Below the pieces are notes generated by a model. That model saw only the letters and a list, made by a program, of their open reading frames with translations. It did not search any database and was not told the DNA's origin. This document shows positions 5,037-28,126 of a DNA stretch of 39,079 nucleotides, one piece after another. Source of the stretch: Candidatus Omnitrophota bacterium (GTDB taxonomy: Bacteria > Omnitrophota > Gorgyraeia > 2-01-FULL-45-10). Every line of letters starts with the position of its first letter. The stretch's first letter is position 1. Both the position numbers and the translations under genes were made by a program. The stretch lies in assembly GCA_003142795.1 (NCBI GenBank), contig PLNN01000020.1, forward strand, positions 33,383 to 72,461. Direction: 5' to 3'.

Positions 5037-7052
5037 TTACTTTTTCTTCGTTGTCTCTAGTGTAGTGGATAGCTTCTTCGTGAAGTCCTGCAACATGCTC
5101 TTCATGCTCTCTTCGAGTTTCTTCTTATTGGGCTCAACGTATTGCTCTCTATATTTGGCTTCCTGCTGGAGGATGTATTCTTCCTCGAACGTCCTTTTCT
5201 CTTTTGCCTTTAGCTTTTCTATGATCCTGTCTATCTGGCTTGGAGGAAGCTTTTCAAGCTCTTTCTGCAATGGGTTCTTCTGCAATACGTTACTCGTATA
5301 CAGGGCCTCGGAGTTCTTCTCTATTATCTTCTTCACTTCATCATAATAGGGCTTTGTAGCTTCATTATATTCGAGCATTATCTTACTCTTTGCAGTGTCA
5401 AGGTTGGAAAAGATATTTTTTATATTGGCCAGGTCGCCTTCCTTTAATAGGTCGGGTATGGCCTGGGCTAAAAGGATATTGGCTACTGCCTGTAAGAGCT
5501 CATCAGTTGCCTTTTTAAGCTCAGGGTTAGCGTTGGCATCTTTTCCGATCACTTCATCCATATCTTTCACGAGGCTGGCTGCTATATCTATTACAGCCTT
5601 CTGGTCGTCTGTGGGGTTGGCAAGGCTGGACATAAGGGCCGTGGTGGATCCCGGCTCACGGCTACTGATGTCACCTAAAGAAACCGGCAATGCGGATTGA
5701 TCAAGGGATTTTTCGACAACATTAACAGGCGCGCCATACGATAGACCTCCGCTCATATCCAGCAAATTTTTCTTTTCAATAGCTGCTTTTAATGCCTCGC
5801 CTAGCCCTTTTTTAGTATTGTCGGAATTTTCTTTTCCGTAAGTGCTCCGCCCTGCAAAGTCTATGTATTCATTATTGTAATATGGCGAATTAGATAAAGA
5901 TCCGATAATATTTGTCAAAGTGCTTTCGTTGTTAAAGGCTGCTGTGTTTTCCGGGATAGGCGTCTCGGCGCGGCTTGTAATTATTGACGCAGTAGGGTAA
6001 CTCTGTGTGAAATAATCGCCATCGGAAGTTATCGTAACTGCGCCGGAGGCCGCTGAAAAGCCAGGTGCATAATAGTTATTATTCGTGGAAGTGACGACTG
6101 TGAGAGGTCCGTTCGGACGTGAAACAAGCGTTGGCGCACCGTTAACGATCTCCATGCCGTAGACATAGCGTGGTCCTTGGGCGCGGAACGCTGTCGGTGC
6201 GTTGAACGTATTATGGTCGAATTCCACATTGGAAAAAGCCATGTTCACCGCTCCCAAAGAATTGTTATTTATAATATTGTTTCTAAGTGTTAGGCTGGAT
6301 GAGTCTGTGATATTCACAGTATAGTCACCCGATGAAGTTATGGTAAAACCGTCGATTTCTGTGGGATCGCTAATATTGGATACCGTTAAACCTTCTATTG
6401 TAGTACGGTTGCCGATCAGATTCCTTTGCCCGCTCTCGTCGTACCCGCCGTAGAGACTGACCCCATCAATAGCGGATATCTGTTCATTGTACTCACCACC
6501 TCTTACAATGATCTTATCGCCGCTCTTAGCTACACCAAGTGCATCTTCTATGGTGGCTGTCCCTACATTATTAAATCCGGCGTAGAAATTCCTCACGCCT
6601 TCAAATACTTCCGAGCCCAGACGCGCACCTTCGTGCCATTCATTCCCGCTAGTATCGAGTTTATTATCTCCTGTTCCTATAGCTACATTATGTGCCGAAT
6701 CGACAAACTGGAACGTATTGCCTGCCGCTAAGACCTGCGGGCGGTTGGTGGCGCCTGTCTTTTGCTGCAAAACAGGGTTAGCGATCTGCTGCGCCGGCGC
6801 CTGCTCTTCCGTCTTGCGGCCTAGCTTATCTTTAAGAAAGTCTAGTGTGGATTCAAAAAACCCTTTTTCTTTATAGTTCGGCAGGTTTACCTTTAAGAAA
6901 CTATCCGCCTGATATTTCGCCGCATTTATATAGCCGGGGCTGAAGGTATAGGAGCTTTCTTGCGAGAGCCTGTCGGCCTTGTCCTCGGCAATAGAAAGAC
7001 ATGGTATTGCAAATGCCAGCGCAAAAATTAGTATTATTATTAGCTTTTTCAT
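5037..7052 (-). CDS. Exported beta-helix protein, paralogue B
   Basis: The 671-residue protein begins with a Sec signal peptide (MKKLIIILIFALAFAIPCLSIAE). Residues about 25-100 form a block nearly identical to the upstream paralogue (SSYTFSPGYINAAKYQADS, KEKGFFES, LGRKTEEQAPAQQ). Residues about 150-400 look like a right-handed parallel beta-helix: TIEDALGVAKSGDKIIVRGG, VSLYGGYDESG, TIEGLTVSNI, LTLRNNIINNN. This resembles the DUF1565/pectate-lyase-like fold. The last ~190 residues are predicted helical or coiled coil, charged, and almost identical to paralogue A (PLQKELEKLPPSQIDRIIEK). It follows paralogue A by 10 bp with an AAGAAG ribosome binding site and so should share its riboswitch. No catalytic residues were recognised; a surface or secreted structural/adhesive role is inference. 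Confidence 0.85.
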   Translation of the reverse strand: MKKLIIILIFALAFAIPCLSIAEDKADRLSQESSYTFSPGYINAAKYQADSFLKVNLPNYKEKGFFESTLDFLKDKLGRKTEEQAPAQQIANPVLQQKTGATNRPQVLAAGNTFQFVDSAHNVAIGTGDNKLDTSGNEWHEGARLGSEVFEGVRNFYAGFNNVGTATIEDALGVAKSGDKIIVRGGEYNEQISAIDGVSLYGGYDESGQRNLIGNRTTIEGLTVSNISDPTEIDGFTITSSGDYTVNITDSSSLTLRNNIINNNSLGAVNMAFSNVEFDHNTFNAPTAFRAQGPRYVYGMEIVNGAPTLVSRPNGPLTVVTSTNNNYYAPGFSAASGAVTITSDGDYFTQSYPTASIITSRAETPIPENTAAFNNESTLTNIIGSLSNSPYYNNEYIDFAGRSTYGKENSDNTKKGLGEALKAAIEKKNLLDMSGGLSYGAPVNVVEKSLDQSALPVSLGDISSREPGSTTALMSSLANPTDDQKAVIDIAASLVKDMDEVIGKDANANPELKKATDELLQAVANILLAQAIPDLLKEGDLANIKNIFSNLDTAKSKIMLEYNEATKPYYDEVKKIIEKNSEALYTSNVLQKNPLQKELEKLPPSQIDRIIEKLKAKEKRTFEEEYILQQEAKYREQYVEPNKKKLEESMKSMLQDFTKKLSTTLETTKKK

Positions 7053-7062
7053 AACATTCTTC

Positions 7063-9135
7063 TTACTTTTTTTTCGTTGTCTCCAGTGTTGTGGATAGCT
7101 TCTTCGTGAAGTCCTGCAGCATGCTCTTCATACTTTCTTCGAGCTTCTTCTTATTGGGTTCAATGTATCGCTGTCTGTATTTGGCTTCCTGCTGGAGGAT
7201 GTACTCTTCCTCTGCGGTCCTCTTCTCTTTTGCTTTGAGCTTCTCTATGATCCTGTCTATCTGGCTCGGAGGAAGCATCTCAAGCTCTTTCTGTAACGGG
7301 TTCTTCTGTAACACGTTACTCGCATAGAGAGCCTCTGAGTTCTTCTCTATTATCTTCTTTACTTCATCATAATAGGGCTTTGTAGCATCGTTATACTCGA
7401 GTATTATCTTACTCTTTGCCGTATCGAGGTTAGAGAAGATGTTCTTTATATTGTACAGGTCGCCTTCCTTTAACAGGTCTGGTATGGCCTGGGCTAAAAG
7501 GATATTGGCTACTGCCTGTAAGAGCTCATCGGTTGCCTTTTTAAGCTCAGGGTTGGCGTTGGCATCTTTTTCTAGGTTATCCATATCCGTCAAGAGCTTT
7601 GTCGTTTCATCTATCACGGTCTTCTGGTCGTCGGTGGGGTTAGAGATGATCTTGGATAATGTCTTGGCCGCATCCATGGCCTGCTGTTCCGCGGTCGTCC
7701 CCTTGAGGCCGTTATCCTGTATCGCCTTATTCACTATTTTACTTAATAGCGCCGGATCCAATTCGCCTCCGCCTTTGGAGGATAGACTGTCTCCTTTGAG
7801 CAGATCTTTAAACATAGAACCCACGGCGCCTGGATCAGTGCTGGCAATGCTTGCAGCGTTGTAGGCATTCGTATACAGGCTCTGGTCATTATATTTATTG
7901 TACACATATTGGGAAGTCAAGATTGTCGGAGCTGAAGAACCTGTATAAGGCGAACTGGAATATGTAGTTATAGCAGGTCCGTTCATATCGCCATTCAATA
8001 CATTTGGTCCACCTGCAAAACCGTTAAATATAAAATTCTGCGATGGATTTGTCCCTCCATTAAAATAATCATTCGTTGAATAAAAAGCGTAGGGTGATCT
8101 GGGAATATAAGTTTCTATTGCTGCGCTTCCATAAAAGTTATTATCTGACGAATGTATGTCTGCGTTTTCTATTACCGGCCCATGCACGGTGTCCGTAAAA
8201 TTATTGCCGTTAAGCGTGAGACTGCATCCATGGCTCTCGAAAAGTGAATTAAAGATATTATTTTCAAAAGTTATATTTCCTCCGCCTTCTGCGTCAAACC
8301 AGTCGTTAAAAGTGTTATTGCTGAAATCTAAACCGGTCTGGGACCAAATAGCTACCGGATCCTGGAAAATAAACCCGTTTATTTTTGCATCGGACGTGCT
8401 TATGGTAACTCCCTCCAGATATGTCGAATTATTGCTAATATCCCTTTCCCCCGTGTCATTATAACCGCCATATAGATTGACGGCCTTATCTATTAACACC
8501 CCATTTGGATAGCCATACATGTCTCCTTTTACTATTATAGTGTCGCCAGCATTCGCGATGTTGAGCGCATCACCAATATTACCCATCCCGGTCCCTACAG
8601 TATCCCCTTCAAAGGAGCCGGCATATATGAATCTTACGTCGTTATCACCTATACGCAATATCTCGGACACCATTCTGCCGTCATATCCTGCATCTGTGCT
8701 AAGGACACCATTGATGTCACGCTTATCATTTCCCTTGCCTATCGGCACATTAAACTGAGTAGACTGGGTCACAATTGTCGCGTTGATTACCTTAGCCGGT
8801 GTTTGAGTGGTATTGACGCTGCCTGTCTTCATTTGCAGGACGGGATTAGCGACCTGCTGCGCCGGCGCCTGTTCCTCTGTCTTACGGCCTAATTTATTTT
8901 TCACAAAGTCCATGGCAGATTCAAAAAATCCCTTCTCTTTATAATCCGGCATATTTACCTTTAAATAGCTATCAGCCTGATATTTGGCCGCATTGATATA
9001 GCCCGGGCTAAAGGTATAAGAACTATCCTGGGAAAGCTTGTCCGATTTGTCCTCACCATATGCAAAGCATAAAGAAGTCCCTGCCACCAAGAATAGGATT
9101 GTTCCTGTGATCAGCATAGCCTTTAAGGTTTTCAT
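7063..9135 (-). CDS. Exported beta-helix protein, paralogue A
   Basis: The 690-residue protein has a signal peptide (MKTLKAMLITGTILFLVAGTSLCFA), the same N-terminal block as its neighbour (SSYTFSPGYINAAKYQADS), a beta-helix-like middle (NIGDALNIANAGDTIIVKGD, VNLYGGYNDTGERD, DFSNNTFNDW, ITFENNIFNS, LTLNGNNFTD) rich in Asn and aromatic residues, and the same charged helical C-terminal ~190 residues. The two genes are about 90% identical in DNA at their 3' ends but poorly alignable in the middle. It is first in the pair; upstream lie a TAAGGAG ribosome binding site, a terminator and a GEMM-I riboswitch. Location is periplasmic or extracellular. No sorting signal or enzyme motif was recognised. 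Confidence 0.85.
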   Translation of the reverse strand: MKTLKAMLITGTILFLVAGTSLCFAYGEDKSDKLSQDSSYTFSPGYINAAKYQADSYLKVNMPDYKEKGFFESAMDFVKNKLGRKTEEQAPAQQVANPVLQMKTGSVNTTQTPAKVINATIVTQSTQFNVPIGKGNDKRDINGVLSTDAGYDGRMVSEILRIGDNDVRFIYAGSFEGDTVGTGMGNIGDALNIANAGDTIIVKGDMYGYPNGVLIDKAVNLYGGYNDTGERDISNNSTYLEGVTISTSDAKINGFIFQDPVAIWSQTGLDFSNNTFNDWFDAEGGGNITFENNIFNSLFESHGCSLTLNGNNFTDTVHGPVIENADIHSSDNNFYGSAAIETYIPRSPYAFYSTNDYFNGGTNPSQNFIFNGFAGGPNVLNGDMNGPAITTYSSSPYTGSSAPTILTSQYVYNKYNDQSLYTNAYNAASIASTDPGAVGSMFKDLLKGDSLSSKGGGELDPALLSKIVNKAIQDNGLKGTTAEQQAMDAAKTLSKIISNPTDDQKTVIDETTKLLTDMDNLEKDANANPELKKATDELLQAVANILLAQAIPDLLKEGDLYNIKNIFSNLDTAKSKIILEYNDATKPYYDEVKKIIEKNSEALYASNVLQKNPLQKELEMLPPSQIDRIIEKLKAKEKRTAEEEYILQQEAKYRQRYIEPNKKKLEESMKSMLQDFTKKLSTTLETTKKK

Positions 9136-13955: not shown

Positions 13956-14327
13956 TTATTGACCGGCTGCTTTGTTTATCGTCTCTTCTAACTCCTTTAA
14001 TGATGATATCGGTTTATCAAAATAGGCGTAGGCGCCCATCTTCAAAAGCCTCGCCTTTGTTTTTCCTCCGTCATCATACGCCGTTATGAATATTATCTGC
14101 GGCGACGGATTTAATGATTTTATCAGTTTCAGGACTTCGTCACCGTCTATGCCCGGCATCTTCAGGTCCATCAGGACGACGTCCGGCTTCTTCTCCTTGA
14201 CGAGCTCAATACCTTTTGCGCCGCGCACTGCCACGTCGATGTTATATCCTCTCAGCTCAAAGTAATCCTTGAGCATACTGATGAATTCGGCTTCGTCGTC
14301 TATCGCAACTATGTTTGGTTTTTTCAT
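13956..14327 (-). CDS. Single-domain response regulator (CheY-like)
   Basis: The 123-residue receiver has D10-D11 (AIDDEAEF), phosphoacceptor D54 (VVLMDLKMPGIDG), threonine in IFITAYDDGG and lysine in YFDKPIS. Its ATG overlaps the stop codon of the upstream kinase gene (ATGA), so it is the likely direct partner of that kinase. No output domain is present. With the next receiver gene it gives one kinase two receivers, a layout that suggests branching or a phosphate sink. Confidence 0.94.
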   Translation of the reverse strand: MKKPNIVAIDDEAEFISMLKDYFELRGYNIDVAVRGAKGIELVKEKKPDVVLMDLKMPGIDGDEVLKLIKSLNPSPQIIFITAYDDGGKTKARLLKMGAYAYFDKPISSLKELEETINKAAGQ

Positions 14328-16477
14328 TCTTTTGCCTTCGCTTCCTGATTTACGGCTGCAGGGAATTCGATCCTGAACGTCGTTCCCGCGCCTACGTGCG
14401 TCTCTTTAAGATATATGCGGCCGCCGTTCTTTTCTATTACCTGGCGGACTATGAATAATCCAAGCCCTGTCCCTTTGCCCGGATCTTTCGTCGTGAAAAA
14501 CGGGTTGAAGAGCTGCTTTATCTTATCTTGAGGTATCCCCGAGCCCGTATCCTGAACGTCGATAAAGACCTTTCCATTCTCCTGATGCGCCGCAATGGTT
14601 ATCTTACCCTTATCCCCTATTGCCTGCCCGGCGTTACGGACGAGGTTAAAGAGCACCTCCTGTAGCTGCTTCCTATCGACAAATATATTGGGCAGATTTT
14701 CCTCGATGTTCTTCTCAAATTCTATCTTCTCCAGCTTCAATTCATAGCCGACCAGGCCGAAGACTTCATCAAGCTCTTTTGCTATGCTAACCAGCTCCGC
14801 CTCACCCTTTGAAGGCTTGGCAAATCCCGAAAGCTTCTTCGTGATTGCCGTTGCCCTGTCAGTCTCTTTTATAACTTTCGCCATGATATCTTGCGCCTTA
14901 GTGAGCAGCTCCTCTGTGGTCTTGGCTTTGTATAAGCCATCCCTTAGGTTCAATAAGAACGCCTCGCATTGTCCGCGCGCTATGCCGAGAGGATTGCATA
15001 TTTCGTGATTTATCCCGGCTGAGAGAGTGCCTATGACCGCCATCTTCTCTCTCTGCGCGGCTTCAGCCTGTGTTTTTCCAAGTTCTACGAATAGTTTCGC
15101 GTTCGAGATGGCAATGGCAAGCGTCCTGGCAAGCGGCAGCAATATGTCTAGGTCATCCTGCGTATAATCTTCATCGGACTTTTTCTTACCAAGCGACAGG
15201 ATACCGATTATCTTCTCATGCACGATCATGGGTATTATTAATTCCGCGTTCAGTTTATCGATTATCTCCTGCACGGCGTCCGGTATGTATATCTTCTTCT
15301 GCCTCAGTTCTTTCGCCAATATATACCCGTGCGTTTCTTCCATGAATGTAACAATGCTGTCTGGCTTTACCAAGGTGATCGATTTATCTTTAATATTTTG
15401 CGATGCCTCAACAGTGAACCGCTGGTTCTCATCATCGAACATAAGGACAGCGCACGAGTCGAGCTTAACGATATCCATCAGCTTATCGACTGTTAGGTCA
15501 ACAAGTTTATCCAACTCCAAGACTGTCAGCACTTCACTTGTAAACGTCTTTAGGAGTTCTTTGTAATCGTATTTCTTCTGGAAGAGGTATTTGTCGGTAA
15601 TATTTGTAAGAAAGGCCTCTATTCTGCGCATAGTTAGAATAATGATAACGCCGCTTATGACAAGACCCATCATTCTTCCGCCAAAACTGGCAGTCCTGAG
15701 AATATATTCCTGAATAAGCAATGTCGGCAAGACCAGCATAGCAAAGACAGATGCAAGAAGTCCCGTAAAAACAAGGGTCTTCTTGATTATTACTTCGATA
15801 TCCATCAGATGATGACGAACAATAGCATAGGCAATACTGCCCACGAATACCGTAGCCAGAATGTTTCCGATGGGTAAAATCGGAATATTATAATATAGAA
15901 AATAGTTTGTAGCTCCGCCCACCATTCCTATGAAAGTTCCCCACAAGATGTACTTTATTTGATTTTTTGATGTTCCCGACTCGGCCTTATAATGCTTGAA
16001 CAAAATATAGTCAGGATACAAAATTCCGAAAATGAAAAAAAGCAAAAATGGATAAAAGCCTACGCCTGCATCGGGCCAAAACGTAAAACAATATTTTTCC
16101 GAAACACCTGAAATAACAAATCTCGAAAACGAGATAAAAATAAACAGTGCGCTTACAGCATAGGATGAATATATTATCTTTTTCTTTTTTTGTTCTTCTC
16201 CTAAAAATACCATCGTGAAATGCAAAAATGTAGTGGGTATAAACATAGCTCCTATTAACAAAAGCCTAGCGAAAAAAAGGCCCTGGGTCTTGTTTGCTGC
16301 GAAATGCCAGGCAAAATAACTCAATGCCCAAAAAGCAACGCTCAATCCAAAAAAAGCAAACCTAATATTTATATTTTTTTTTGGATTGGTTTTATAAACA
16401 AAGATGGCTAATGCCAGGCTTGTTATGCCATTAATTAAACAACTGATCATGTTCCAAACAAAATAACTATGATTCAT
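14324..16477 (-). CDS. 7TM-GAF sensor histidine kinase
   Basis: About 717 residues. The N terminus holds six to eight hydrophobic segments like the 7TM sensor region of histidine kinases (HisKA_7TM), then the block IVRHHLMDIEVIIKKTLVFTG and two further membrane segments, a linker ending DKYLFQKKYDYKELLK, a GAF domain (residues about 330-465), a dimerisation helix with the phospho-histidine in GINHEICNPL, and a complete ATPase domain: NLVRNAGQAI (N box), DTGSGIP (G1), FFTTKDPGKGTGLGL (F/G2). It should autophosphorylate and pass phosphate to the adjacent receiver. The ORF track starts at a GTG (16486); the ATG at 16477 has GGAG 8 bp upstream and is preferred. Related to the kinases at 18973 and 21002. 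Confidence 0.92.
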   Translation of the reverse strand: MNHSYFVWNMISCLINGITSLALAIFVYKTNPKKNINIRFAFFGLSVAFWALSYFAWHFAANKTQGLFFARLLLIGAMFIPTTFLHFTMVFLGEEQKKKKIIYSSYAVSALFIFISFSRFVISGVSEKYCFTFWPDAGVGFYPFLLFFIFGILYPDYILFKHYKAESGTSKNQIKYILWGTFIGMVGGATNYFLYYNIPILPIGNILATVFVGSIAYAIVRHHLMDIEVIIKKTLVFTGLLASVFAMLVLPTLLIQEYILRTASFGGRMMGLVISGVIIILTMRRIEAFLTNITDKYLFQKKYDYKELLKTFTSEVLTVLELDKLVDLTVDKLMDIVKLDSCAVLMFDDENQRFTVEASQNIKDKSITLVKPDSIVTFMEETHGYILAKELRQKKIYIPDAVQEIIDKLNAELIIPMIVHEKIIGILSLGKKKSDEDYTQDDLDILLPLARTLAIAISNAKLFVELGKTQAEAAQREKMAVIGTLSAGINHEICNPLGIARGQCEAFLLNLRDGLYKAKTTEELLTKAQDIMAKVIKETDRATAITKKLSGFAKPSKGEAELVSIAKELDEVFGLVGYELKLEKIEFEKNIEENLPNIFVDRKQLQEVLFNLVRNAGQAIGDKGKITIAAHQENGKVFIDVQDTGSGIPQDKIKQLFNPFFTTKDPGKGTGLGLFIVRQVIEKNGGRIYLKETHVGAGTTFRIEFPAAVNQEAKAKE

Positions 16478-16482
16478 CTCTA

Positions 16483-17616
16483 TCACTCCAGTAAGGCTCG
16501 CATAATATTTTCAATTTCAGGAGGGCATCCTGGAACAAATACACTGCCTTTCTTAGCCCCAGCGAAATCTTTTGTACAATTTCCAATAAAGATTGCTTCG
16601 TCAGAATATTTGCTAGCATAGCGCTCCGCGTCTTTTCCCAAAACAATATCAATTCTATTGGCTTTTATTAATTTTTTAATAAATTTTAATAACTTAATTG
16701 GATTACGTTTAATTTTTTTATGCGAGTCACTTAATGAAAAAATACAGCCTGAACAAGCGCTATTCGGCCACACTGTTAAAAAACGATATTTTTCAAACGC
16801 AACCGATGGCTGTTCAAATTTCGTAGAAAACTTCTTAAAAATGTTATCGAAATCTTCATTTTTTACTGGCGATCCAACCTTTTCTTCGATAGCATTTTTT
16901 ATGTGCGTAGCGGAATTGTAATCAATTCCTATCAATAGACATGCCAACGAATCTATTTCGACCATATTATTACCAGCCATAACGATATCTGCTCTTTTTG
17001 GCTTTCCGTGATGTGGACCGTTTCCTTCCATGCCTATTCGCCCATCTATAATATTCACAAAAGGCTTTGCCGCCATTCCCAAATATGCTAAGTACCTGCT
17101 TAAATCAGTCCTGTGCATTAACATTCTATCCTTAGCTAGGAGAAGACCCATCTGATTTTTTATTGCTAACGAAACAGTTGTTTCCATGTGCGTTTTTAAA
17201 CAACATAGATTAACATAGGCATGACTTGTCAATATTTCAGGCAAACTCATTTCAAAACCTTTTATATTAATTTTTACCCTGTTAGAATTATCCAAATCCA
17301 GAAATTTAACTTTTTTGTATTTCTCAAGTTTAATCATTTGAGAATGCTTGAGCAGAGTTTTGAAATCATATCTATTGTTTCCAAAATTTAAAAGCGCTCC
17401 GTGCCCAAGCACTATTTCCTCACATCCGCCTTCAATACATATTTCACAAAGAGCTCCCACTATATCACTGGCTGTATTTTCTCCTTCAATAATGGGATAT
17501 CGTCCTCCCAGATTAGGTTTTATAAATATATTTTTTTGTTTTCTTATAGCAAAATCTTCGTAGATATTTTCTATAATAAACTTTATGCTACTATTATTCT
17601 TGTAAACTCTGATCAT
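16483..17616 (-). CDS. DUF362 domain protein
   Basis: The 377-residue protein matches the DUF362 family: NIFIKPNLGG near the N terminus, EIVLGHGALL, LKTHMETTVSLAIKNQMGLL and IIDGRIGMEGNGPHHGKPK. The biochemical role of DUF362 is not established; some members carry ferredoxin modules, but none is obvious here. A C-terminal part (residues about 275-377) has scattered cysteines (NSACSGC, IGNCTKDF, PGCPPEI) and may be a separate domain. It starts 3 bp after plsC and reaches the start region of the kinase gene. Base composition is visibly AT-rich and the protein is rich in Lys, Ile and Asn, unlike the housekeeping genes here. Confidence 0.8.
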   Translation of the reverse strand: MIRVYKNNSSIKFIIENIYEDFAIRKQKNIFIKPNLGGRYPIIEGENTASDIVGALCEICIEGGCEEIVLGHGALLNFGNNRYDFKTLLKHSQMIKLEKYKKVKFLDLDNSNRVKINIKGFEMSLPEILTSHAYVNLCCLKTHMETTVSLAIKNQMGLLLAKDRMLMHRTDLSRYLAYLGMAAKPFVNIIDGRIGMEGNGPHHGKPKRADIVMAGNNMVEIDSLACLLIGIDYNSATHIKNAIEEKVGSPVKNEDFDNIFKKFSTKFEQPSVAFEKYRFLTVWPNSACSGCIFSLSDSHKKIKRNPIKLLKFIKKLIKANRIDIVLGKDAERYASKYSDEAIFIGNCTKDFAGAKKGSVFVPGCPPEIENIMRALLE

Positions 17617-17618
17617 AT

Positions 17619-18485
17619 TTATACCAGGAGTCCTATTTTCCCCGTTTCGTCCTTAATATTTCTTAGACCGCTTTCTTTTTCAAATTTCTTAATGTCATTA
17701 ATCGCTGAGGCATCCCATTCTTCACCTGCTGTTATCCGGATAGTGTTCATAATTTGCAAGGCTATTTTCTGTAAATCATTCTTCGTCAATTGGTCAACAT
17801 TTATATTTTTACGTCTCTCTGATGCATAAATATTTTTTAATAGGTGATGATTTGAAGATATAAGAATTTTTTTACCAATAATGACTGTACACTTTTTCAG
17901 CCGCGGAATGCGACTATCTGGAGGCAATATTTCATAAGTACCCTTCATCGTAATCGGGATGATTGGAACATCTGCTAGTATGGCTAATTTTACAAAACCG
18001 TATTTCGGCATCAGCATTTTACCGGATCTGGAGCGCGTAGCTTCTGGATAAATTATGATGGCTTTTCCAGCTTTGAGATGCCTCATTATGTCTCTAAAAA
18101 ATGAGTACCCCGGATAGTCCTGATCAATATAAACCACATTATGAAGCTTCGTAAACCATTTTATAAAAAACGTTTGCTTTATTTTTTTTGACGCAACAAA
18201 TGTAACATAATTTTTTAACATAGCCCCTAGTATAAGAAAATCAAAATAACTCATATGATTTGATATAAATATTGCCGGTTTTTTTATGGGGATATTTTCG
18301 ATACCGCGAATTTCTTTAATCCAAAGCCTAAAGAAGGCAAATACTGTAAGGCGCACGATTTTAAACCGAATTCGTCTAATTAGTCGATAACGTAATTTCA
18401 CAATGCGAGTAATTGTTAATCTATATAAATTAACCATTTTCCGCACTAGTCGATACCGAGCCGATATTTTATTTTTTTTCTTCAT
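17619..18485 (-). CDS. 1-acyl-sn-glycerol-3-phosphate acyltransferase family (PlsC-like)
   Basis: The protein carries the acyltransferase motif NHMSYFD (HxxxxD, residues about 70-80), a lysophospholipid-binding block VVYIDQDYPGY, the variant YPEATRSRSGKM where most members have PEGTRS, and VPIIPITMKGTYEI. It should acylate lysophosphatidate or a related lipid at the inner membrane; specificity is not readable. A basic N-terminal stretch (RYRLVRKMVNLYRL) precedes a hydrophobic segment. The ORF track starts at a TTG (18518); the ATG at 18485 (MKKKNKIS) is chosen, but neither has a Shine-Dalgarno sequence. A TATAAT (18541-18536 on the minus strand) lies upstream. AT-rich like the DUF362 gene. 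Confidence 0.82.
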   Translation of the reverse strand: MKKKNKISARYRLVRKMVNLYRLTITRIVKLRYRLIRRIRFKIVRLTVFAFFRLWIKEIRGIENIPIKKPAIFISNHMSYFDFLILGAMLKNYVTFVASKKIKQTFFIKWFTKLHNVVYIDQDYPGYSFFRDIMRHLKAGKAIIIYPEATRSRSGKMLMPKYGFVKLAILADVPIIPITMKGTYEILPPDSRIPRLKKCTVIIGKKILISSNHHLLKNIYASERRKNINVDQLTKNDLQKIALQIMNTIRITAGEEWDASAINDIKKFEKESGLRNIKDETGKIGLLV

Positions 18486-18585
18486 TGTATTCGATTTAAT
18501 ATTTTTAAAATTTGGCAAGTAAATAACTTATAACTATTATATAACGTTTATCAGGCATCAGTTTAACTTATGGCTCGTCCATAAA

Positions 18586-18621
18586 CAAAAATACCCGACT
18601 TCATTAAAGAAATCGGGTATT
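18586..18621 (-). terminator. Intrinsic terminator of the small HTH gene
   Basis: On the minus strand AATACCCGA pairs with TCGGGTATT and runs into a T-rich stretch (TATTTTTG). It overlaps the TAA stop codon at 18622-18620 and separates this gene from plsC. Confidence 0.85.
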
Positions 18622-18814
18622 AGCCTGAATGTCCGTTATTCTCTTTTTCCTGATCAGCAATCCAGCGGTCTATAGTGGACTTCTTGAACCGCCAGTTGGC
18701 CCCTACCTTGAAACAAGGAAGCTTCCCGCACTTCGCGTGCTTGTAAATAGTGACGGGCTGCATCCGCAGGTACTTGGCCACTTCCTGAACAGTGAAAACA
18801 CTGTCTTCTTCCAT
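18620..18814 (-). CDS. Small excisionase-like HTH protein (HTH_17)
   Basis: The 64-residue protein is a single excisionase/MerR-like winged helix: SVFTVQEVAKYLRMQPVTIYKHAKCGKLPCFKVGANWRFKKSTIDRWI is the full HTH_17 pattern. Such proteins bind DNA as excisionases, or act as small regulators. No integrase or att site is visible, so an excisionase role has no local support. It is a stand-alone gene: strong promoter at 18919-18946, about 100-nt structured leader, GGTGG ribosome binding site and a terminator overlapping the stop. The same domain occurs in two proteins at 27-28 kb. Confidence 0.88.
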   Translation of the reverse strand: MEEDSVFTVQEVAKYLRMQPVTIYKHAKCGKLPCFKVGANWRFKKSTIDRWIADQEKENNGHSG

Positions 18815-18833
18815 ACTGCCACCATCCCTTGAT

Positions 18834-18891
18834 ATTAGTTATACTATTTTGGTATAGACTAATATGCCTTTATACATCTTCGTATAAAGGC
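18834..18891. promoter_or_regulatory. Structured leader of the small HTH gene: two dyads
   Basis: GCCTTTATAC (18866-18875) and GTATAAAGGC (18882-18891) form a perfect 10-bp stem with a 6-nt loop. Next to it ATTAGT-T-ATAC (18834-18844) and GTAT-AG-ACTAAT (18852-18863) form an imperfect dyad. Both lie between promoter and ribosome binding site, so they could be an operator (autoregulation) or an RNA control structure. Confidence 0.55.
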
Positions 18892-18918
18892 AAATCAATT
18901 GGACTACGGTATGATGGA

Positions 18919-18946
18919 AGTATACCTTATTATTGAGAATTGTCAA
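18919..18946 (-). promoter_or_regulatory. Strong promoter of the small HTH gene
   Basis: Minus strand TTGACA (18946-18941), 16-bp spacer, TATACT (18924-18919). The predicted start near 18912 leaves a leader of about 98 nt. Confidence 0.8.
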
Positions 18947-18972
18947 TAGTTAGGAACTAAATTTTGATACAA

Positions 18973-20994
18973 TTATTTCGTAGCAGAAAATATTATAATA
19001 AATTTTGCGTCTTCGCTCTCCCCGCTGGTTACTCGCATATTACCGCGATTACGCCATACGAGCTGCCGCACGATTGACAGGTCAAACCATACTGTGCAGC
19101 CATTACAGACTATCTCGATAATAATATTGGTATCTTTTTCATTGTAAGCCTTTATCACAATAGTGCCGCTTTCTTTAGTGGCTTGGCCGGCACTCCGCAG
19201 TATAGTGAAAAATATCTGCTGTATTTGTCTTTTGTCGGCCATTATCTGGGGCAGATTTTTGTCTATATCCATTGCTATACTTATATGCTCCATCTCAAGC
19301 TCATGACCGATAACGCTAATAGTCTCTTCGACCTGCTCTCTAATATCTACAGGCTCCGTTTTCAGGTCCTTTGAAGGCCTGGCAAAATTTGATAGCTTCT
19401 TTGTAATATCATTTATCCTCGCTGTCTGTTCCAGGCAAATATTCATTACGTTTTTGGCTTCATTTATTGCATAATCTAGGTTCTTGTCACTATATGATCC
19501 TTTCTCAAGGCTTATCATGTAATCCTGGATATTGGTGTTTATCATGTTGAGCGGGTCACCTATCTCATGGTTTATGCCGGCGGCCAGCGTACCCACAGCA
19601 GCTCTCCGCTCATTTTGCGCGGCCTCAGCAAAGAGCTGGGCATTTGCTATGGCGATTGCCTCTGTTCTTGCCAGATCAATTAATATGTCTAGGTCGTCTT
19701 GGGTGTAGTTTTCGTCGGACCTCTTTTTGCCAAGCATCATAATTCCGATAAGGTCATTGTGAAGCATTAGAGGAATGGCAAGATGTGCGCCGGTTTCGAG
19801 AAGCCCATTTTTCAATTCGTCAACTTTAGAATTTTTCTCATCTTCTATCGAGATGATACCTTTTACTGCCTTCAAAGCTTTCGTAATCTTTGAAGAACTG
19901 TCAAAAATTATCTCTTCATCATATCCCATAGTTTTATAAGAAACGTATTTGTCTTCATATCGATTAAACAGCAATACCGCCGCTCTCTCGGGATGCAGCG
20001 TTTTATCCAATAACTCAAGTGTCCTTTGTATTGCATCGTCAAGACTCAATATGGTCAAAACTTCGTCAATGAAAGACTTCAAAACTTGTTTGTAATCATA
20101 CTTCTTCTGGAAAAGGTATTTATCGGTTATATTTATAAGAAAGGTTTTAATTCGACGCATTGTAAGGATAATAATAATACCACTAATAATCAGCCCTACC
20201 ATCCTACCGCCTGTTCCTGCTCCTCTAAACAATAATTCCTGAATAAGTAATGTCGGCACAACCAGCATAGTAAAGATAGCCGCAAGAAGCCCCGTAAAAA
20301 CAAGGGTCTTCTTTATAACAACTTCTATATCCATCAGGTGGTGACGAACAATAGCGTAAGATGTAACAATAGGGTATATGCATATCAAAACGCTTGCAAA
20401 TGGAGGCACTTTTATATTTAAAATTAAAAAGAAAAGCGAAATCCCTCCGGCAAAACCAAGTGCGGTTCCCGCAAAAAAATATCGTAACTGGTTTCTTCTT
20501 TCCCCGGATGATTTTCTTAATGCTACATACAACAATCCATTGCCATAACCGGCGAATACACAATACATTAACGCATAAATCGGATATAAAACTCCCCATT
20601 CCGGGTAATATTTAATATTAAGCTTTAACACCACATCTTTAACAACTAATGGAGTAAAGCAAAACAGAAACATGGCACTTGAAAATATATAAGAAGTTAA
20701 AATAATTTTTTTAAATTTTTCTCTCGAGTCTAATAGGACTACCACGAAATCAAAAAATAGAATAGGGACATACGCCCCAAATGCGTGAGAAATGCGACTA
20801 AAGGTTAATGAAAGACGATGATCAAAATATCCTGTCAAGGTCAGAAAATATCCAAAACACCATAAGGATATACTCAGACTCAACAAAAACCATTTCCCGC
20901 TAAGCACTCTTTGCCTGTTATTAAAATAGACAAACATGCCTAGTGAAAAACTAAGAATGGCTGTTATGCCTGTAGTCAGAGCATAAAAATTCAT
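18973..20994 (-). CDS. 7TM-GAF histidine kinase paralogue with degenerate ATPase domain
   Basis: About 673 residues with the same plan as its neighbour: hydrophobic sensor region, block IVRHHLMDIEVVIKKTLVFTG, GAF, and a dimerisation helix keeping the histidine (GINHEIGDPL, with D for the usual N). The ATPase domain is broken: the N box reads TILRSAGQAT where the paralogue has NILRNAGQAI, and about 27 residues holding the G1, F and G2 boxes are replaced by a short CTVWFD before LSIVRQLVWRNRG. The frame stays open, so it is a pseudokinase or phosphotransfer remnant, not a frameshift. The ORF-track start is a GTG at 21042; the ATG at 20994 (MNFYALTTG) with AGGAT upstream is preferred and starts 7 bp after the previous gene. 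Confidence 0.85.
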   Translation of the reverse strand: MNFYALTTGITAILSFSLGMFVYFNNRQRVLSGKWFLLSLSISLWCFGYFLTLTGYFDHRLSLTFSRISHAFGAYVPILFFDFVVVLLDSREKFKKIILTSYIFSSAMFLFCFTPLVVKDVVLKLNIKYYPEWGVLYPIYALMYCVFAGYGNGLLYVALRKSSGERRNQLRYFFAGTALGFAGGISLFFLILNIKVPPFASVLICIYPIVTSYAIVRHHLMDIEVVIKKTLVFTGLLAAIFTMLVVPTLLIQELLFRGAGTGGRMVGLIISGIIIILTMRRIKTFLINITDKYLFQKKYDYKQVLKSFIDEVLTILSLDDAIQRTLELLDKTLHPERAAVLLFNRYEDKYVSYKTMGYDEEIIFDSSSKITKALKAVKGIISIEDEKNSKVDELKNGLLETGAHLAIPLMLHNDLIGIMMLGKKRSDENYTQDDLDILIDLARTEAIAIANAQLFAEAAQNERRAAVGTLAAGINHEIGDPLNMINTNIQDYMISLEKGSYSDKNLDYAINEAKNVMNICLEQTARINDITKKLSNFARPSKDLKTEPVDIREQVEETISVIGHELEMEHISIAMDIDKNLPQIMADKRQIQQIFFTILRSAGQATKESGTIVIKAYNEKDTNIIIEIVCNGCTVWFDLSIVRQLVWRNRGNMRVTSGESEDAKFIIIFSATK

Positions 20995-21001
20995 GACATC
21001 T

Positions 21002-23104
21002 TTATCCTGTTGTAAATATTGCCGTAAACGTTGTCCCCTCACCCACTTTACTCTTTACTTTTATATCACCCTTATTACGCCAGACAAGCTGACGCACTAT
21101 TGATAAACCAAGGCCTGTGCCGGAATCTTCATCTTTGGTGGTATAAAAAGGCTCGTAGATCTTATCTATCTTATCTTCAGGGATGCCGCAACCGTTATCT
21201 GTGATCTCAATGTGGACACTTCCGTTTTTTTTATCATAAGCCTTTATCTCTATAACACCGTTTTCTTTAATTGCCTGACCGGCATTTCGCAGGATATTGA
21301 ATAATATCTGCTGAATATGTCGTTTGTCGGCCATTATCTCAGGAAGGCCTTTGTCGATATTTTTTATGACATTTATACGCTCCGTTTCAAGCTCATGCCC
21401 TATAACCCTAAGGGTTTCCTCTATCTGTTCTGCTACGTCGACCGGCTCAGGCGTAAAGTCTTTCGCAGGCTTAGCGAAGTTTGAGAGTTTCCTTGCAATA
21501 TCCGATATCCTAGCCGTTTGCTGAAGACACAAGTTCATAACATCTTTGGCTTCACCTATAACCTCCTTCGGATCTTTATCGCGATACAAACCTTTTCCAA
21601 GAGCCATAAGATATACCTGGATATTGGTGTTTATTATATTTAGGGGATTACCTATCTCATGATTTATACCAGCGGAGAGCGTACCCATGGCGGCTCTTCG
21701 CTCATTTTGCGCGGCATCGGCAAAGAGCTGGGCATTTCCTATGGCGATCGCTTCTGTTCTAGCCAAGCCAGTCAATATATCGAGATCATCCTGGGTATAG
21801 TTTTCGTCGGACTTCTTTTTGCCAAGTAGCATGATACCAATAAGGTCATCGTGAAGCATTAATGGAATGGCGAGATGAACACCGATCCTGCCAAACTCAT
21901 CCTTTAATTCGTCCGCTCCGGCGCCTTCCTTGCCTTCTATCAAAACGATATCTTTTGCCTGCTTCAGGGCTTTTGTAATTCTTGAAGAACTCTTCAAAAT
22001 TATATCTTTATCGTATCCTAAAGCTCGATATGAAGCATACTCGTCGTTATATCTATTTATCAATAGTACATCCACCTTCTCAGGATGGAGCGTTTTAACA
22101 AGTAGCTCAACTGTTTTTTGTATTACGTCATCAAGATTCAAGATCGTAAGGACTTCATCAATGAAAGATTTTAATACTTGCTTATAGTCGTATTTCTTCT
22201 GGAAAAGATATTTATCAGTGATATTCATAAGAAAAGTCTCTATGCGACGCATAGTGAGTATGATAATTATACCGCTTATCGCAAGACCAAGAACCCTCGT
22301 ACTAAAACTCGCACTTCTTAATATGTAATCTTGGATAAGCAGTGTGGGCAGTATCAATATAGCAAAAACCGACGCTAGAAGACCCGCAAAAATAAGGGCT
22401 TTCTTCATTACTACTTCGATGTCAAGCAGCTGATGGCGAATGATAGCAAAAGCCACAATGGAAATAAAAATTGCTATGTTGTAACAACCGAATGGATAAA
22501 ATTGCAATCCATAGCTTGGAAGAAAATCGACAGAACCAATGTTGCCCAAGAGATAAGCCCAAAAAACATATCGAATTCTATTTTTTTCTATATCACTATG
22601 CTGTTTCGATAGCGAACCATAACCAAATCTGTATAGTTGAGTTAGGCAATATGCGAACATGCTTAATGCATAAAACCAAAACATAGGATTTAATAACCCC
22701 GCCTTAGGGTACGGACCCCAAAAATATATGAAAAATCCATTAATGATACTATCTGACCACATTGTCGCTACAATAAACATAAGTCCCAGAGTATATGTTA
22801 AAACTAGGAATATTCTATTTTTTATATCTAGAAATTTTGAAGTAAAATGCACATAAAAAATAGCTATAAGAGTTACACCAAGATATGCAAATTTAGACAA
22901 AAGTAATATTGTGGTAATATAAGCAGGTAGCGTGTATAGCAAAAAGCAGGAATACAGCCATACGACTCCGCCAAAACATACAAGTGATAGCAACCAATTA
23001 AGTAACCGCCTTGGATTAGACTTAATAATGAATATGGCAAGGCAAAATAAAAATGTACCTACGATGAATGGTGAGCCTCTATAAAAATAATCCATAGGAT
23101 TCAT
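21002..23104 (-). CDS. 7TM-GAF sensor histidine kinase (intact paralogue)
   Basis: The 700-residue protein has about eight hydrophobic N-terminal segments, the block IIRHQLLDIEVVMKKALIFAG and two membrane segments, DKYLFQKKYDYKQVLK, a GAF domain (residues about 335-465), a phospho-histidine in GINHEIGNPL and a complete ATPase domain: NILRNAGQAI, DNGCGIPEDK, FYTTKDEDSGTGLGLSIVRQL. No receiver gene is next to it. It is followed after 7 bp by the degenerate paralogue, and the pair is a likely tandem duplication. It may start at the ATG at 23104 or at 23095; neither has a strong Shine-Dalgarno sequence. Confidence 0.9.
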   Translation of the reverse strand: MNPMDYFYRGSPFIVGTFLFCLAIFIIKSNPRRLLNWLLSLVCFGGVVWLYSCFLLYTLPAYITTILLLSKFAYLGVTLIAIFYVHFTSKFLDIKNRIFLVLTYTLGLMFIVATMWSDSIINGFFIYFWGPYPKAGLLNPMFWFYALSMFAYCLTQLYRFGYGSLSKQHSDIEKNRIRYVFWAYLLGNIGSVDFLPSYGLQFYPFGCYNIAIFISIVAFAIIRHQLLDIEVVMKKALIFAGLLASVFAILILPTLLIQDYILRSASFSTRVLGLAISGIIIILTMRRIETFLMNITDKYLFQKKYDYKQVLKSFIDEVLTILNLDDVIQKTVELLVKTLHPEKVDVLLINRYNDEYASYRALGYDKDIILKSSSRITKALKQAKDIVLIEGKEGAGADELKDEFGRIGVHLAIPLMLHDDLIGIMLLGKKKSDENYTQDDLDILTGLARTEAIAIGNAQLFADAAQNERRAAMGTLSAGINHEIGNPLNIINTNIQVYLMALGKGLYRDKDPKEVIGEAKDVMNLCLQQTARISDIARKLSNFAKPAKDFTPEPVDVAEQIEETLRVIGHELETERINVIKNIDKGLPEIMADKRHIQQILFNILRNAGQAIKENGVIEIKAYDKKNGSVHIEITDNGCGIPEDKIDKIYEPFYTTKDEDSGTGLGLSIVRQLVWRNKGDIKVKSKVGEGTTFTAIFTTG

Positions 23105-23697: not shown

Positions 23698-24279
23698 TTA
23701 TACCTTATACTTGTCCATCTCTTTTAATAGCTCTATGATCTCGGATTCGAGCCGCTCCCATCCGAGAGGGCCTTGCGGTTTGTCGCGAAGCGCTATCGCA
23801 TCATCCAGTATCTTGGTCAGGCGCTCCCTCTGGTCAGTCACCGAGAGCTTTATGCTTTCACATACGCTATTTACGCCGTCCGCAAGGCTCATAAGTTCGT
23901 CGCCTTTTCTCAGGACGATGCGCGCGCTAAAATCGCCTGACGCCATATCGCTCATAAATTTCTCCATCCTGGCAATAGGGCCTGCTATCTTATGCGACAG
24001 GTATATGCCGAGAGCGATAACGAGCGGACACAGCAGGAGGATGCTCATCAATAATCTTAAGTTTACGGTTTTAACTATATGCACAAGCTGGCCCTGAGGG
24101 TAGACGTTGGCGAGTTTCTCACCCATAAGCAGCATGCTTGTATAATAAACGATATAAGATGACAGCGCGGCCGTTGCGAGCATTAATACCAGGATAACGC
24201 CGGCATATTTTAACTGGAACCGCCTCGAGACAAGATATTTCTGTCTCCTGTACTTTAAATTACTCGTTCCTATGGGCAT
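23698..24279 (-). CDS. HAMP-domain membrane protein without output domain
   Basis: The 193-residue protein has a basic N terminus, a membrane segment (residues about 24-47, YAGVILVLMLATAALSSYIV), a short external loop of roughly 25 residues, a second membrane segment (residues about 74-95) and a HAMP domain (SHKIAGPIARMEKFMSDMASGDFSAR, EIxSLADGVN-like), ending in a helical tail. No kinase, methyl-accepting, GGDEF or phosphatase domain follows. It may pass a signal to a partner by coiled-coil contact. It starts 1 bp after the PDZ lipoprotein gene and is the last gene of the gatC run, so the two probably work together. Confidence 0.8.
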   Translation of the reverse strand: MPIGTSNLKYRRQKYLVSRRFQLKYAGVILVLMLATAALSSYIVYYTSMLLMGEKLANVYPQGQLVHIVKTVNLRLLMSILLLCPLVIALGIYLSHKIAGPIARMEKFMSDMASGDFSARIVLRKGDELMSLADGVNSVCESIKLSVTDQRERLTKILDDAIALRDKPQGPLGWERLESEIIELLKEMDKYKV

Positions 24280-24280
24280 A

Positions 24281-25231
24281 TCATTCTCCTCTCCAGATTA
24301 ATGCGTCTCTTCTTATGACAAATTTAACAGTCCCCTTCGATCCTTTTATCAATTCAAGCGCCTTTTTAAGAGGCATGTAGCGTGTAGGCTGGCCATTTAT
24401 AGATACTATGATATCGTCGTTTTTGAGAACCTGCCTTTCAGGCGCGGCCGTTCCTCTCGCGCCCGATACTGTCAAGCCTTTCAATTCCACAGAAAAGGAC
24501 AGGCCTTCGGGAGACGTCTCCACAGTCCTCTCTATTATGCACTTTATCTCTAAAGACGGTTTGTCCAGCATAGCTTCCAATATTTCATTTAATGACATGT
24601 AGCCGGTCAATTTCGACCACAGGGCGGCTATGATATCGCCATCTCTTATGCCGGCTGAATATGCCGGCGACTTCGACCGCACGTCGGCAACCCTCGGAAA
24701 TCCCTTTTCGATCTCGAGCTTCAGGCCGATCACATCCCATAGCCTTCTTATCATATCTTTAAAGACCTCTTCCGCGGTTTGGGTCTTTTCCATCGGCACG
24801 ACAGTCCCGTAGCGCTCTATATTCTCTCTTCTCTTTATATCGTCCAGCTTTTCCGATTCCTCTTTCCGGAAAAGATATCCCTGCAAAAAGACCAACCCGT
24901 CGTTCGCATCCTTGAAGTCCGGATTTATCTTCAAGGCCATATTGTAATAGGTGAACGCGCGCGCGAAATCGTGGCGGTCTTTGGCCTGGTCCGCGAGCTT
25001 TACAAGGTTCTCTTCCTCGTTATCGAAATAAAGCTCTTTTATATCGTCTTTTTTCAAAGTGGTTTCGCCGGTGAAGGAAGACAGGACGATCCTGTCCTTA
25101 TAATCTTCTACGACTATTCCTTTAAGTTCTTTCCCGTCTTTCATCTGGACCGTGTCGGCGGATGAACAAGCAACAAGTAACAGGTTACAAGTCACAAGTA
25201 AAAGAATAAAACAAAAGATTTTCAATCTCAT
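24281..25231 (-). CDS. Lipoprotein with TPR-like and PDZ domains
   Basis: The 316-residue protein has a lipoprotein signal peptide with lipobox LVAC at C22 (an LVTC lies 7 residues earlier). It is followed by an SH3/Sm-like strand-rich block (VQMKDGKELKGIVVEDYKDRIVLSS), a TPR-like segment (FARAFTYYNMALKINPDFKDA) and two PDZ-like domains (residues about 165-245, SPAYSAGIRDGDII; residues about 245-310, LKNDDIIVSINGQ). No protease domain is present, so it probably scaffolds or senses in the periplasm. Its start overlaps the larC stop by 4 bp. The signal-peptide coding sequence is a heptanucleotide repeat (25165-25199). Confidence 0.82.
   Translation of the reverse strand: MRLKIFCFILLLVTCNLLLVACSSADTVQMKDGKELKGIVVEDYKDRIVLSSFTGETTLKKDDIKELYFDNEEENLVKLADQAKDRHDFARAFTYYNMALKINPDFKDANDGLVFLQGYLFRKEESEKLDDIKRRENIERYGTVVPMEKTQTAEEVFKDMIRRLWDVIGLKLEIEKGFPRVADVRSKSPAYSAGIRDGDIIAALWSKLTGYMSLNEILEAMLDKPSLEIKCIIERTVETSPEGLSFSVELKGLTVSGARGTAAPERQVLKNDDIIVSINGQPTRYMPLKKALELIKGSKGTVKFVIRRDALIWRGE
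25165..25199. repeat. Heptanucleotide tandem repeat encoding a lipoprotein signal peptide
   Basis: Plus-strand units AACAAGC, AACAAGT, AACAGGT, TACAAGT, CACAAGT (five 7-bp units). On the coding strand they give LLVTCNL-LLVACSS, a 21-nt/7-residue period that duplicates the lipobox. Confidence 0.85.
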
Positions 25232-27161: not shown

Positions 27162-27560
27162 TTATACCCTGAAGATCAGATACATCAGGCCAGCTATCAC
27201 AACAAAACAGATGATGTAGAAGTCGTTAAAATAAAAGAAATCCCTGATCTTCTCGCCGGCCGTATAGTCGAACTGACGCACGACCGGTTCCCTCTTTTTT
27301 ATTTCGTGCTCAAGTTCGGTGTAGGTATGCGTGGGACGACCCTTCGTGTCGAGGACGGGTTTCGCGCGCTCGGGCTCATGGGATTCCAACTCGGATATTT
27401 CGCTTCTTATGGCGTCGATCTGGTCTTTCCGGAATCTCAGGAAGGTGTCGCCTATCTTATATGCCGGTATCTCGCCGATATCGACCAGTCTCTTGACTTC
27501 CTCTTCCGACACCTTCAGGTACTCCGCCACCTCTTTTATCGTTATGAGTTTTTCCGGCAT
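27162..27560 (-). CDS. Tail-anchored excisionase-like HTH protein
   Basis: The 132-residue protein has an N-terminal HTH_17/excisionase-like domain (residues about 4-52: LITIKEVAEYLKVSEEEVKRLVDIGEIPAYKIG, LRFRKDQID), an acidic and basic linker (residues about 53-105) and one C-terminal hydrophobic segment (residues about 112-131: FYIICFVVIAGLMYLIF) ending two residues later. It should sit in the inner membrane with the HTH in the cytoplasm. AGGGG lies 7 bp before the ATG. It is directly downstream of the bactofilin-HTH gene (10 bp gap). The pair could attach DNA, or a protein partner, to the membrane; RodZ also uses a cytoplasmic HTH for protein contact. Function unproven. Confidence 0.82.
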   Translation of the reverse strand: MPEKLITIKEVAEYLKVSEEEVKRLVDIGEIPAYKIGDTFLRFRKDQIDAIRSEISELESHEPERAKPVLDTKGRPTHTYTELEHEIKKREPVVRQFDYTAGEKIRDFFYFNDFYIICFVVIAGLMYLIFRV

Positions 27561-27570
27561 ATTTATGCCC

Positions 27571-28110
27571 CTATTTTATCTTTCCTGAAGCGACCCATTC
27601 ATCTACCCGCGCGCGATCGAACTTCCACGCGTCGCCTTCTTTCATCGCAGGAAGCTTTCCCGCGTTGACCCATTCATTGATCATACCCATATCCACTTCC
27701 AGGTATTTAGCGAGCTCTTCTGTCGACATCATATTGTATCTGGATGCGGCTTCGTCTTTCGACTTCGCGAGCATGTGGCAAGTCCCCTCGAGCACGGCGC
27801 CTTCCGCGACGCTCAATAGCGGCGTCCTCACATCGCCGACAACGCAGGCAGGCGATATCAGTTTGATATCTTTAATAGCATGCACGTTGCCGTTCACCTT
27901 TCCGGCAATGACGATCGAGTCACCGATGATATCGGCGTTAACTATCGCGTGTTCGCCGATCATAAGGTTGCCTTTGGTATTGAGCGTGCCTTCGAAACGG
28001 CCGTTTATCCTTAAATTCACGGGATCTTTGAATACGAGGGATCCCTGCATAGCCGCGTCAACGTCCAACACTTTCACATCTTCATGTTTCTTATCTTTTT
28101 TCCCCAGCAT
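27571..28110 (-). CDS. Bactofilin fused to a C-terminal excisionase-like HTH
   Basis: The 179-residue protein has a bactofilin (DUF583) beta-solenoid at residues about 15-115 (LVFKDPVNLRINGRFEGTL, LMIGEHAIVNADIIGDSI, IAGKVNGNVHAIKDIKL) and then, after a short linker, an HTH_17 domain (residues about 125-176: MSTEELAKYLEVDMGMINEWVNAGKLPAMKEG, WKFDRARVDEW). Bactofilins polymerise into membrane-associated filaments that position cell-wall enzymes or chromosome-segregation proteins. Ordinary bactofilins end in short disordered tails; a DNA-binding-type domain is unusual. A strong AAGGAGG precedes the ATG. The next gene encodes a tail-anchored protein with the same HTH type. Confidence 0.88.
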   Translation of the reverse strand: MLGKKDKKHEDVKVLDVDAAMQGSLVFKDPVNLRINGRFEGTLNTKGNLMIGEHAIVNADIIGDSIVIAGKVNGNVHAIKDIKLISPACVVGDVRTPLLSVAEGAVLEGTCHMLAKSKDEAASRYNMMSTEELAKYLEVDMGMINEWVNAGKLPAMKEGDAWKFDRARVDEWVASGKIK

Positions 28111-28126
28111 TCGCCGCCTCCTTGAC

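Follow-up and report, generated by a model that had tools for sequence, protein, structure and literature searches.

Bactofilins, among them BacA of Caulobacter, the Thermus bactofilin, CcmA and BacNOP, are the closest described relatives of the gene reported here, with which they share the PF04519 beta-solenoid, a short basic N-terminal peptide and a C-terminal region likely used for clients. Their membrane-targeting sequence was described as MFSKQAKS, with the consensus MFSKKKK (PMC12448750), and binding of clients by bactofilin C-termini is known from Myxococcus (PadC; PMC5703909) and Asticcacaulis (SpmX; PMC12364344). How bactofilins hold their clients is poorly understood, and the C-terminal tails described so far are mostly disordered and variable. 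In contrast, the tail found in Omnitrophota is a folded HTH_17 domain which is conserved across the phylum.

This domain shares the winged-HTH fold with the BldC/Xis-type HTH_17 proteins (BldC, RdfS, Pukovnik Xis, TIGR01764) and is recognized above curated cut-offs, but differs from them in being joined to a filament protein, in its acidic character and in the loss of the DNA-contact residues. CbpM also has a MerR fold in which the Tyr and Arg that bind DNA are missing; it binds the J-domain of CbpA with a conserved hydrophobic patch that acidic residues surround (PMC4063869). The fused HTH resembles CbpM in both respects, i.e., a MerR-type fold lacking the DNA-contact Tyr/Arg and acidic residues around a putative protein-binding patch, whereas CbpM is a coiled-coil dimer binding a J-domain, with neither filament nor membrane anchor. 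Bactofilins and HTH_17 domains are each already known, but the literature searched (most subscription journals were outside its scope) contained no description of their fusion, of its conservation across the phylum or of the tail-anchored companion. Likewise, this literature yielded no characterized bactofilin with an HTH_17 domain, as a preliminary description of the same DNA had supposed, and no paper on bactofilins of Omnitrophota.

The fusion gene and its tail-anchored neighbour

The window, i.e., the whole analysed stretch of 39,079 nucleotides from a Candidatus Omnitrophota bacterium, contains the fusion gene followed by a second HTH_17 gene, with the following features:

27571..28110 (-): bactofilin-HTH_17 fusion gene, 179 aa, ATG at 28110, stop at 27571
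28072..28110 (-): N-terminal tail of the fusion, residues 1-13 (MLGKKDKKHEDVK), resembling the bactofilin membrane-targeting consensus MFSKKKK
27778..28071 (-): bactofilin beta-solenoid, residues 14-111 (PF04519; AlphaFold2; Foldseek to 6rib/2n3d)
27733..27777 (-): linker, residues 112-126, of low AlphaFold2 confidence, its length and sequence varying among relatives
27583..27732 (-): C-terminal HTH_17, residues 127-176 (PF12728), a winged HTH of the BldC/Xis type
27655..27693 (-): acidic 'recognition helix', residues 140-152 (DMGMINEWVNAGK), with E146 in the place of BldC Arg30 and W147 aligned with BldC Trp31
27162..27560 (-): partner gene, a tail-anchored HTH_17 protein of 132 aa, starting 10 bases past the fusion stop codon
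27411..27548 (-): N-terminal HTH_17 of the partner, residues 5-50 (PF12728, E 1.6e-11; Foldseek)
27168..27260 (-): conserved C-terminal motif RDFFYFNDFY of the partner leading into a single transmembrane helix, residues 101-131 (AlphaFold2 helix 101-131)

From the letters alone, the preliminary description had recognized a bactofilin solenoid and a complete HTH_17 domain in one frame, and profile searches and structure predictions bore this out. The reading frame, with an AAGGAGG ribosome-binding site upstream of its ATG at about 28117-28123, matches Bactofilin in Pfam over residues 14-111 (E 1.6e-22, 80 bits against a cut-off of 27.9) and HTH_17 over residues 127-176 (E 2e-11, 44.4 bits against 27), the latter being complete with profile positions 1-50 of 51 covered. 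In addition, the NCBIfam model TIGR01764 (excise) scored 41.6 bits against a cut-off of 28.8. AlphaFold2 modelled the solenoid as a beta-solenoid with a pLDDT of about 90-95, a linker disordered at residues 116-123 (pLDDT < 50) and the C-terminus as a separate winged HTH with a pLDDT of about 80. By Foldseek, the first half of the model is similar to the solved bactofilins 6rib and 2n3d. For the HTH half, the same search found BldC (6ama, 1.5 A over 49 residues) along with RdfS, RacA and Pukovnik Xis, the values for the BldC/Xis structures being 1.4-1.6 A over about 49 residues. A sequence search of the fused HTH alone against the PDB found nothing useful.

At the N-terminus, MLGKKDKK fits the hydrophobic residue 2, K4 and K7 of MFSKQAKS/MFSKKKK; a basic start is common to most relatives of the fusion, and many distant ones are basic without a strong hydrophobic residue 2. 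Judged by alignment only, the motif with the hydrophobic residue of the C-terminal polymerization interface (F105 in Thermus, F130 in Caulobacter) corresponds to GAVLEG, the residue itself being L107 in the window and F, L or I in most relatives.

The neighbouring gene at 27162-27560 (-), which the preliminary description had missed, is a conserved second HTH_17 gene. Its product carries the HTH_17 at the N-terminus and, beyond a linker, a transmembrane tail at the C-terminus; 65 of 66 orthologues feature a hydropathy maximum above 1.6. The HTH matches RacA, Xis, BldC and CbpM in Foldseek. An identity with RodZ was considered and rejected, as the protein comprises HTH_17 and a tail anchor only and leaves no room for a periplasmic domain. 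In family f7, all that is left of the partner is a 64-aa protein with the DFFYFYDYY motif and the transmembrane tail, the HTH being absent (L220:1423-1617, L221:1495-1689); with regard to this protein, the tail itself may be the functional core.

Occurrence in Omnitrophota and gene neighbourhood

The genome is an Omnitrophota MAG, and of ten relatives found in GTDB genomes, nine bear the name Omnitrophota or Omnitrophica. About 318 of the 384 Omnitrophota genomes sampled gave strong matches to the fusion profile (E below about 1e-30); these are distributed over many families, mostly full-length and normally present in one copy per genome. The Pfam bactofilin model matched 101 of 117 Omnitrophota genomes, nearly always once, and a bactofilin is present in 17 of the 27 genomes of the window's order. 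The HTH lies in the same frame as the solenoid in 47 of the 48 solenoid ORFs inspected directly; in the exception (G047), masked bases (Ns) break the ORF and the HTH sits in the next one. Nearly all bactofilin-bearing Omnitrophota have their bactofilin fused to HTH_17, which settles the question of whether the fusion is lineage-wide in favour of the whole phylum. That it might originate from gene calling, assembly or chance, a concern raised at the outset, is hardly conceivable any more, given the same frame and order in 99 distinct fused HTH sequences from independent genomes of many families and the scores of both domains far above curated cut-offs.

The only clear unfused bactofilin (L027) was observed in the single genome of a sister family (G026), which possesses a fused copy as well. 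No bactofilin was found in sampled members of families f8 and f33, in the genomes G035, G080 and G163 and, one doubtful match aside, in sampled f7 members. An apparent bactofilin in G051 was discarded, since its solenoid match is weak and the protein seems to be a secreted one of unrelated kind. Among plasmid records, 11 gave a match, none of them spanning both domains, and the viral contigs scanned contained no relative. In a tree of HTH domains, 97 of the 99 fused HTHs fall within one group of 98, but the support of this node is nil and a single origin is therefore not claimed from the tree.

Within the 97 loci offering enough downstream sequence, a small HTH ORF follows the fusion directly on the same strand in 96 (median gap 22 bases) and after one short ORF in the remaining one (L011). 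In the window's class the gene order is gatC-gatA-gatB-ctpA-polysaccharide deacetylase-tsaD-mgtC-fusion-partner-larB-larC, while in another class the pair is located among other genes, including a surE-like one. Thus, the pair stays together when its surroundings change. A clean absence of the fusion between mgtC and the partner, with all neighbours kept, was observed in G015 and genus g4 (L077, L080, L082, L083, L084); these genomes contain no bactofilin anywhere, and the partner is retained at 62-75% identity. Family f8, which lacks the bactofilin, retains a partner-like gene beside tsaD. The role of the partner consequently reaches beyond the filament and the adjacency may reflect operon inheritance; an obligate two-protein pair is ruled out by its survival in these three lineages.

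The genes around the fusion (gatCAB, ctpA, tsaD, mgtC, larBC) are housekeeping genes conserved across a class, and a function as excisionase was rejected in view of the missing integrase or mobile-element context. Directly downstream of larC, positions 23698-25231 of the window encode a protein with PDZ domains, a weak TPR match and a lipoprotein-like start, after which comes a small membrane protein that matches HAMP weakly. In other genomes of the window's class, larC is likewise followed by a HAMP-like gene.

The DNA-contact surface of the fused HTH

In BldC, K26 and R30 contact bases, T27, T29 and K33 contact phosphates and the wing contributes H46, R47 and R48, with R30A or H46E essentially abolishing DNA binding (PMC5859096). 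The residues of the window at K26/T27/T29/R30/K33 are G142, M143, N145, E146 and N149, and those at the wing positions are A161, W162 and K163; Arg30 is accordingly replaced by E146, whereas W147 aligns with Trp31 of BldC. The 99 distinct fusions were compared with 40 other HTH_17 domains of the phylum, which were drawn from the best Pfam matches and, as controls, lean to canonical DNA binders. The Arg30 position is occupied by D/E in 84% and K/R in 7% of the fusions, as opposed to 5% and 78%, respectively, of the controls. At the T29 position, Tyr occurs in 88% of the controls and mixed residues in the fusions, and 97% of controls versus 23% of fusions possess the wing Arg in the column of residue 163. 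A helix of the classical T-I-Y-R/K type and a wing Arg that hardly varies characterize the controls, but not the fusions. The mean charge of the recognition helix amounts to -0.6 in fusions and +2.8 in controls (Mann-Whitney p 9e-18, not corrected for relatedness), that of the whole domain to -3.1 (n=99) and +5.3 (n=40).

Within the fusions, L137, P154 and W172 are conserved in 100%, E138 in 94%, W147 in 90% (Leu or Met in the other 10%), D/E at 146 in 84% and A148 in 78%, and residue 139 is V, I or L. This pattern indicates a domain that is conserved rather than decaying, with a conservation that is partly special to the fusion group. The partner HTH is intermediate, with an acidic helix start and a basic wing; K/R is found at the Arg30 position in 50% and the wing Arg in 100%. 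Most of the recognition-helix residues kept by other HTH_17 domains of the phylum are missing from the fused HTH and the partner HTH alike.

The preliminary description had left undecided whether the filament binds DNA through its HTH or uses it as a protein dock. In the former case, the filament would anchor the chromosome, or a particular locus, at the membrane, as RacA does or the bactofilin-ParABS system of Myxococcus. The fold is indeed that of the DNA-binding proteins BldC, RacA and Xis, bactofilins organize ParABS in Myxococcus through PadC, which is itself nucleoid-associated (PMC5703909), and an array along a filament would suit BldC-type domains, which bind DNA as head-to-tail multimers (PMC5859096). 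Nevertheless, the DNA-binding residues are replaced, most tellingly Arg30 by Glu/Asp, and the domain is acidic, while other HTH_17 domains of the phylum keep their DNA residues. RacA resembles the fusion in connecting a MerR-like HTH to a membrane-associated scaffold, but binds DNA via the Arg equivalent to BldC Arg30, where the fusion has Glu. Moreover, no chromosome-segregation gene is linked among the neighbours (gatCAB, ctpA, polysaccharide deacetylase, tsaD, mgtC, larB, larC). DNA tethering is accordingly considered unlikely. The HTH_17 domain itself stands, without a plausible recognition-helix surface for DNA. As its DNA face is replaced by a phylum-conserved acidic/Trp face, the fused HTH is best read as a protein-binding domain.

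A proposed membrane-bound filament with a putative protein dock

For the observed fusion, its spread, the linked partner, the lost DNA-contact residues and the conserved patch replacing them, the favoured explanation is a membrane-associated bactofilin scaffold whose winged HTH has probably, though by no means certainly, turned from DNA binding into a protein-binding dock. According to this model, the solenoids would polymerize into a filament, which the basic N-terminal peptide should hold on the inner membrane, as expected from homology. Given the resemblance of MLGKKDKK to the membrane-targeting sequence, a position on the membrane is expected for the filament, with the HTHs on linkers beneath. 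Each subunit would display one HTH_17 on its flexible linker just below the membrane, resulting in a dense array of docking sites, and the conserved acidic/Trp face (E138, D/E140, E/D146, W147) may bind a client protein. The most likely candidate for this client, or for an adaptor on the membrane side, is the tail-anchored product of the next gene, which would present its own HTH_17 at the membrane.

With regard to envelope proteins, the fusion might provide the scaffold and its partner the adaptor, by analogy with RodZ and MreB. The cytoplasmic HTH region of RodZ is needed for the curvature localization of MreB (PMC6052060). RodZ, too, is a membrane protein with a cytoplasmic HTH working with a cytoskeletal filament, and a similar action is proposed for the partner. 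However, RodZ belongs to another HTH family, possesses a large periplasmic domain and has MreB as its partner, and no homology is claimed.

The small HTH gene next door in 96 of 97 loci, in two gene contexts, counts for the dock, as do the lost DNA-contact residues, the conserved patch and the N-terminus; CbpM, also matched by the partner in Foldseek, and the clients PadC and SpmX serve as precedents. Against it count the retention of the partner without bactofilin, the basic residues that the partner HTH keeps in part, the leaning of the controls to canonical DNA binders and the minority of fusions with Leu or Met at position 147. Furthermore, some HTH proteins bind DNA via few base contacts, and avidity along the filament could offset weak DNA sites, which likewise has to be set against this reading.

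As a sub-case of the dock, the fused HTH and the partner HTH may bind each other, perhaps head-to-tail like BldC protomers, and thereby couple the filament to the membrane. Both genes of the window carry the same type of domain only 10 bases apart, their adjacency recurs almost without exception, most of the DNA surface is lost in both HTHs, and the BldC interface residues F21, V23 and W31 stay hydrophobic in the fusion (L137 in 100%, V/I/L139, W147 in 90%). Yet several lineages retain the partner in the absence of bactofilin, and the BldC salt bridge R22-E16' is impossible between fused HTHs, in which the R22 position is Glu in 94%. Such a direct contact is possible but rather doubtful; if true, two repurposed non-DNA-binding winged HTHs would form a clutch between cytoskeleton and membrane, an independent counterpart of MreB-RodZ.

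A separate client would be dispensable if the fused HTH were an appendage modifying the polymer, its homotypic contacts bundling protofilaments or setting their spacing. The filament would place the HTHs in a regular array and BldC/Xis-type HTHs self-associate, but this self-association needs DNA as a guide in BldC (PMC5859096), the acidity of the whole fused HTH (mean -3) disfavours homotypic packing, and the near-universal partner gene would be left unexplained. This explanation therefore appears improbable.

With the folded, conserved bactofilin domain and the candidate partner offered by a largely uncultured phylum, the client question becomes directly testable. The dock would likely be a further case of a DNA-binding fold reused for protein binding, and the annotation 'excisionase-like HTH' need not mean DNA binding.

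Other regions of the window

Three GAF-type histidine-kinase-like genes lie within 9 kb at positions 14324-23104 of the window. The middle one (18973-21042) comprises HisKA_7TM and GAF without a Pfam HATPase match and may be degenerate. Besides, a 690-aa ORF at 7063-9135 without a Pfam match (E <= 0.001) is located beside a right-handed beta-helix protein of 671 aa (5037-7052).
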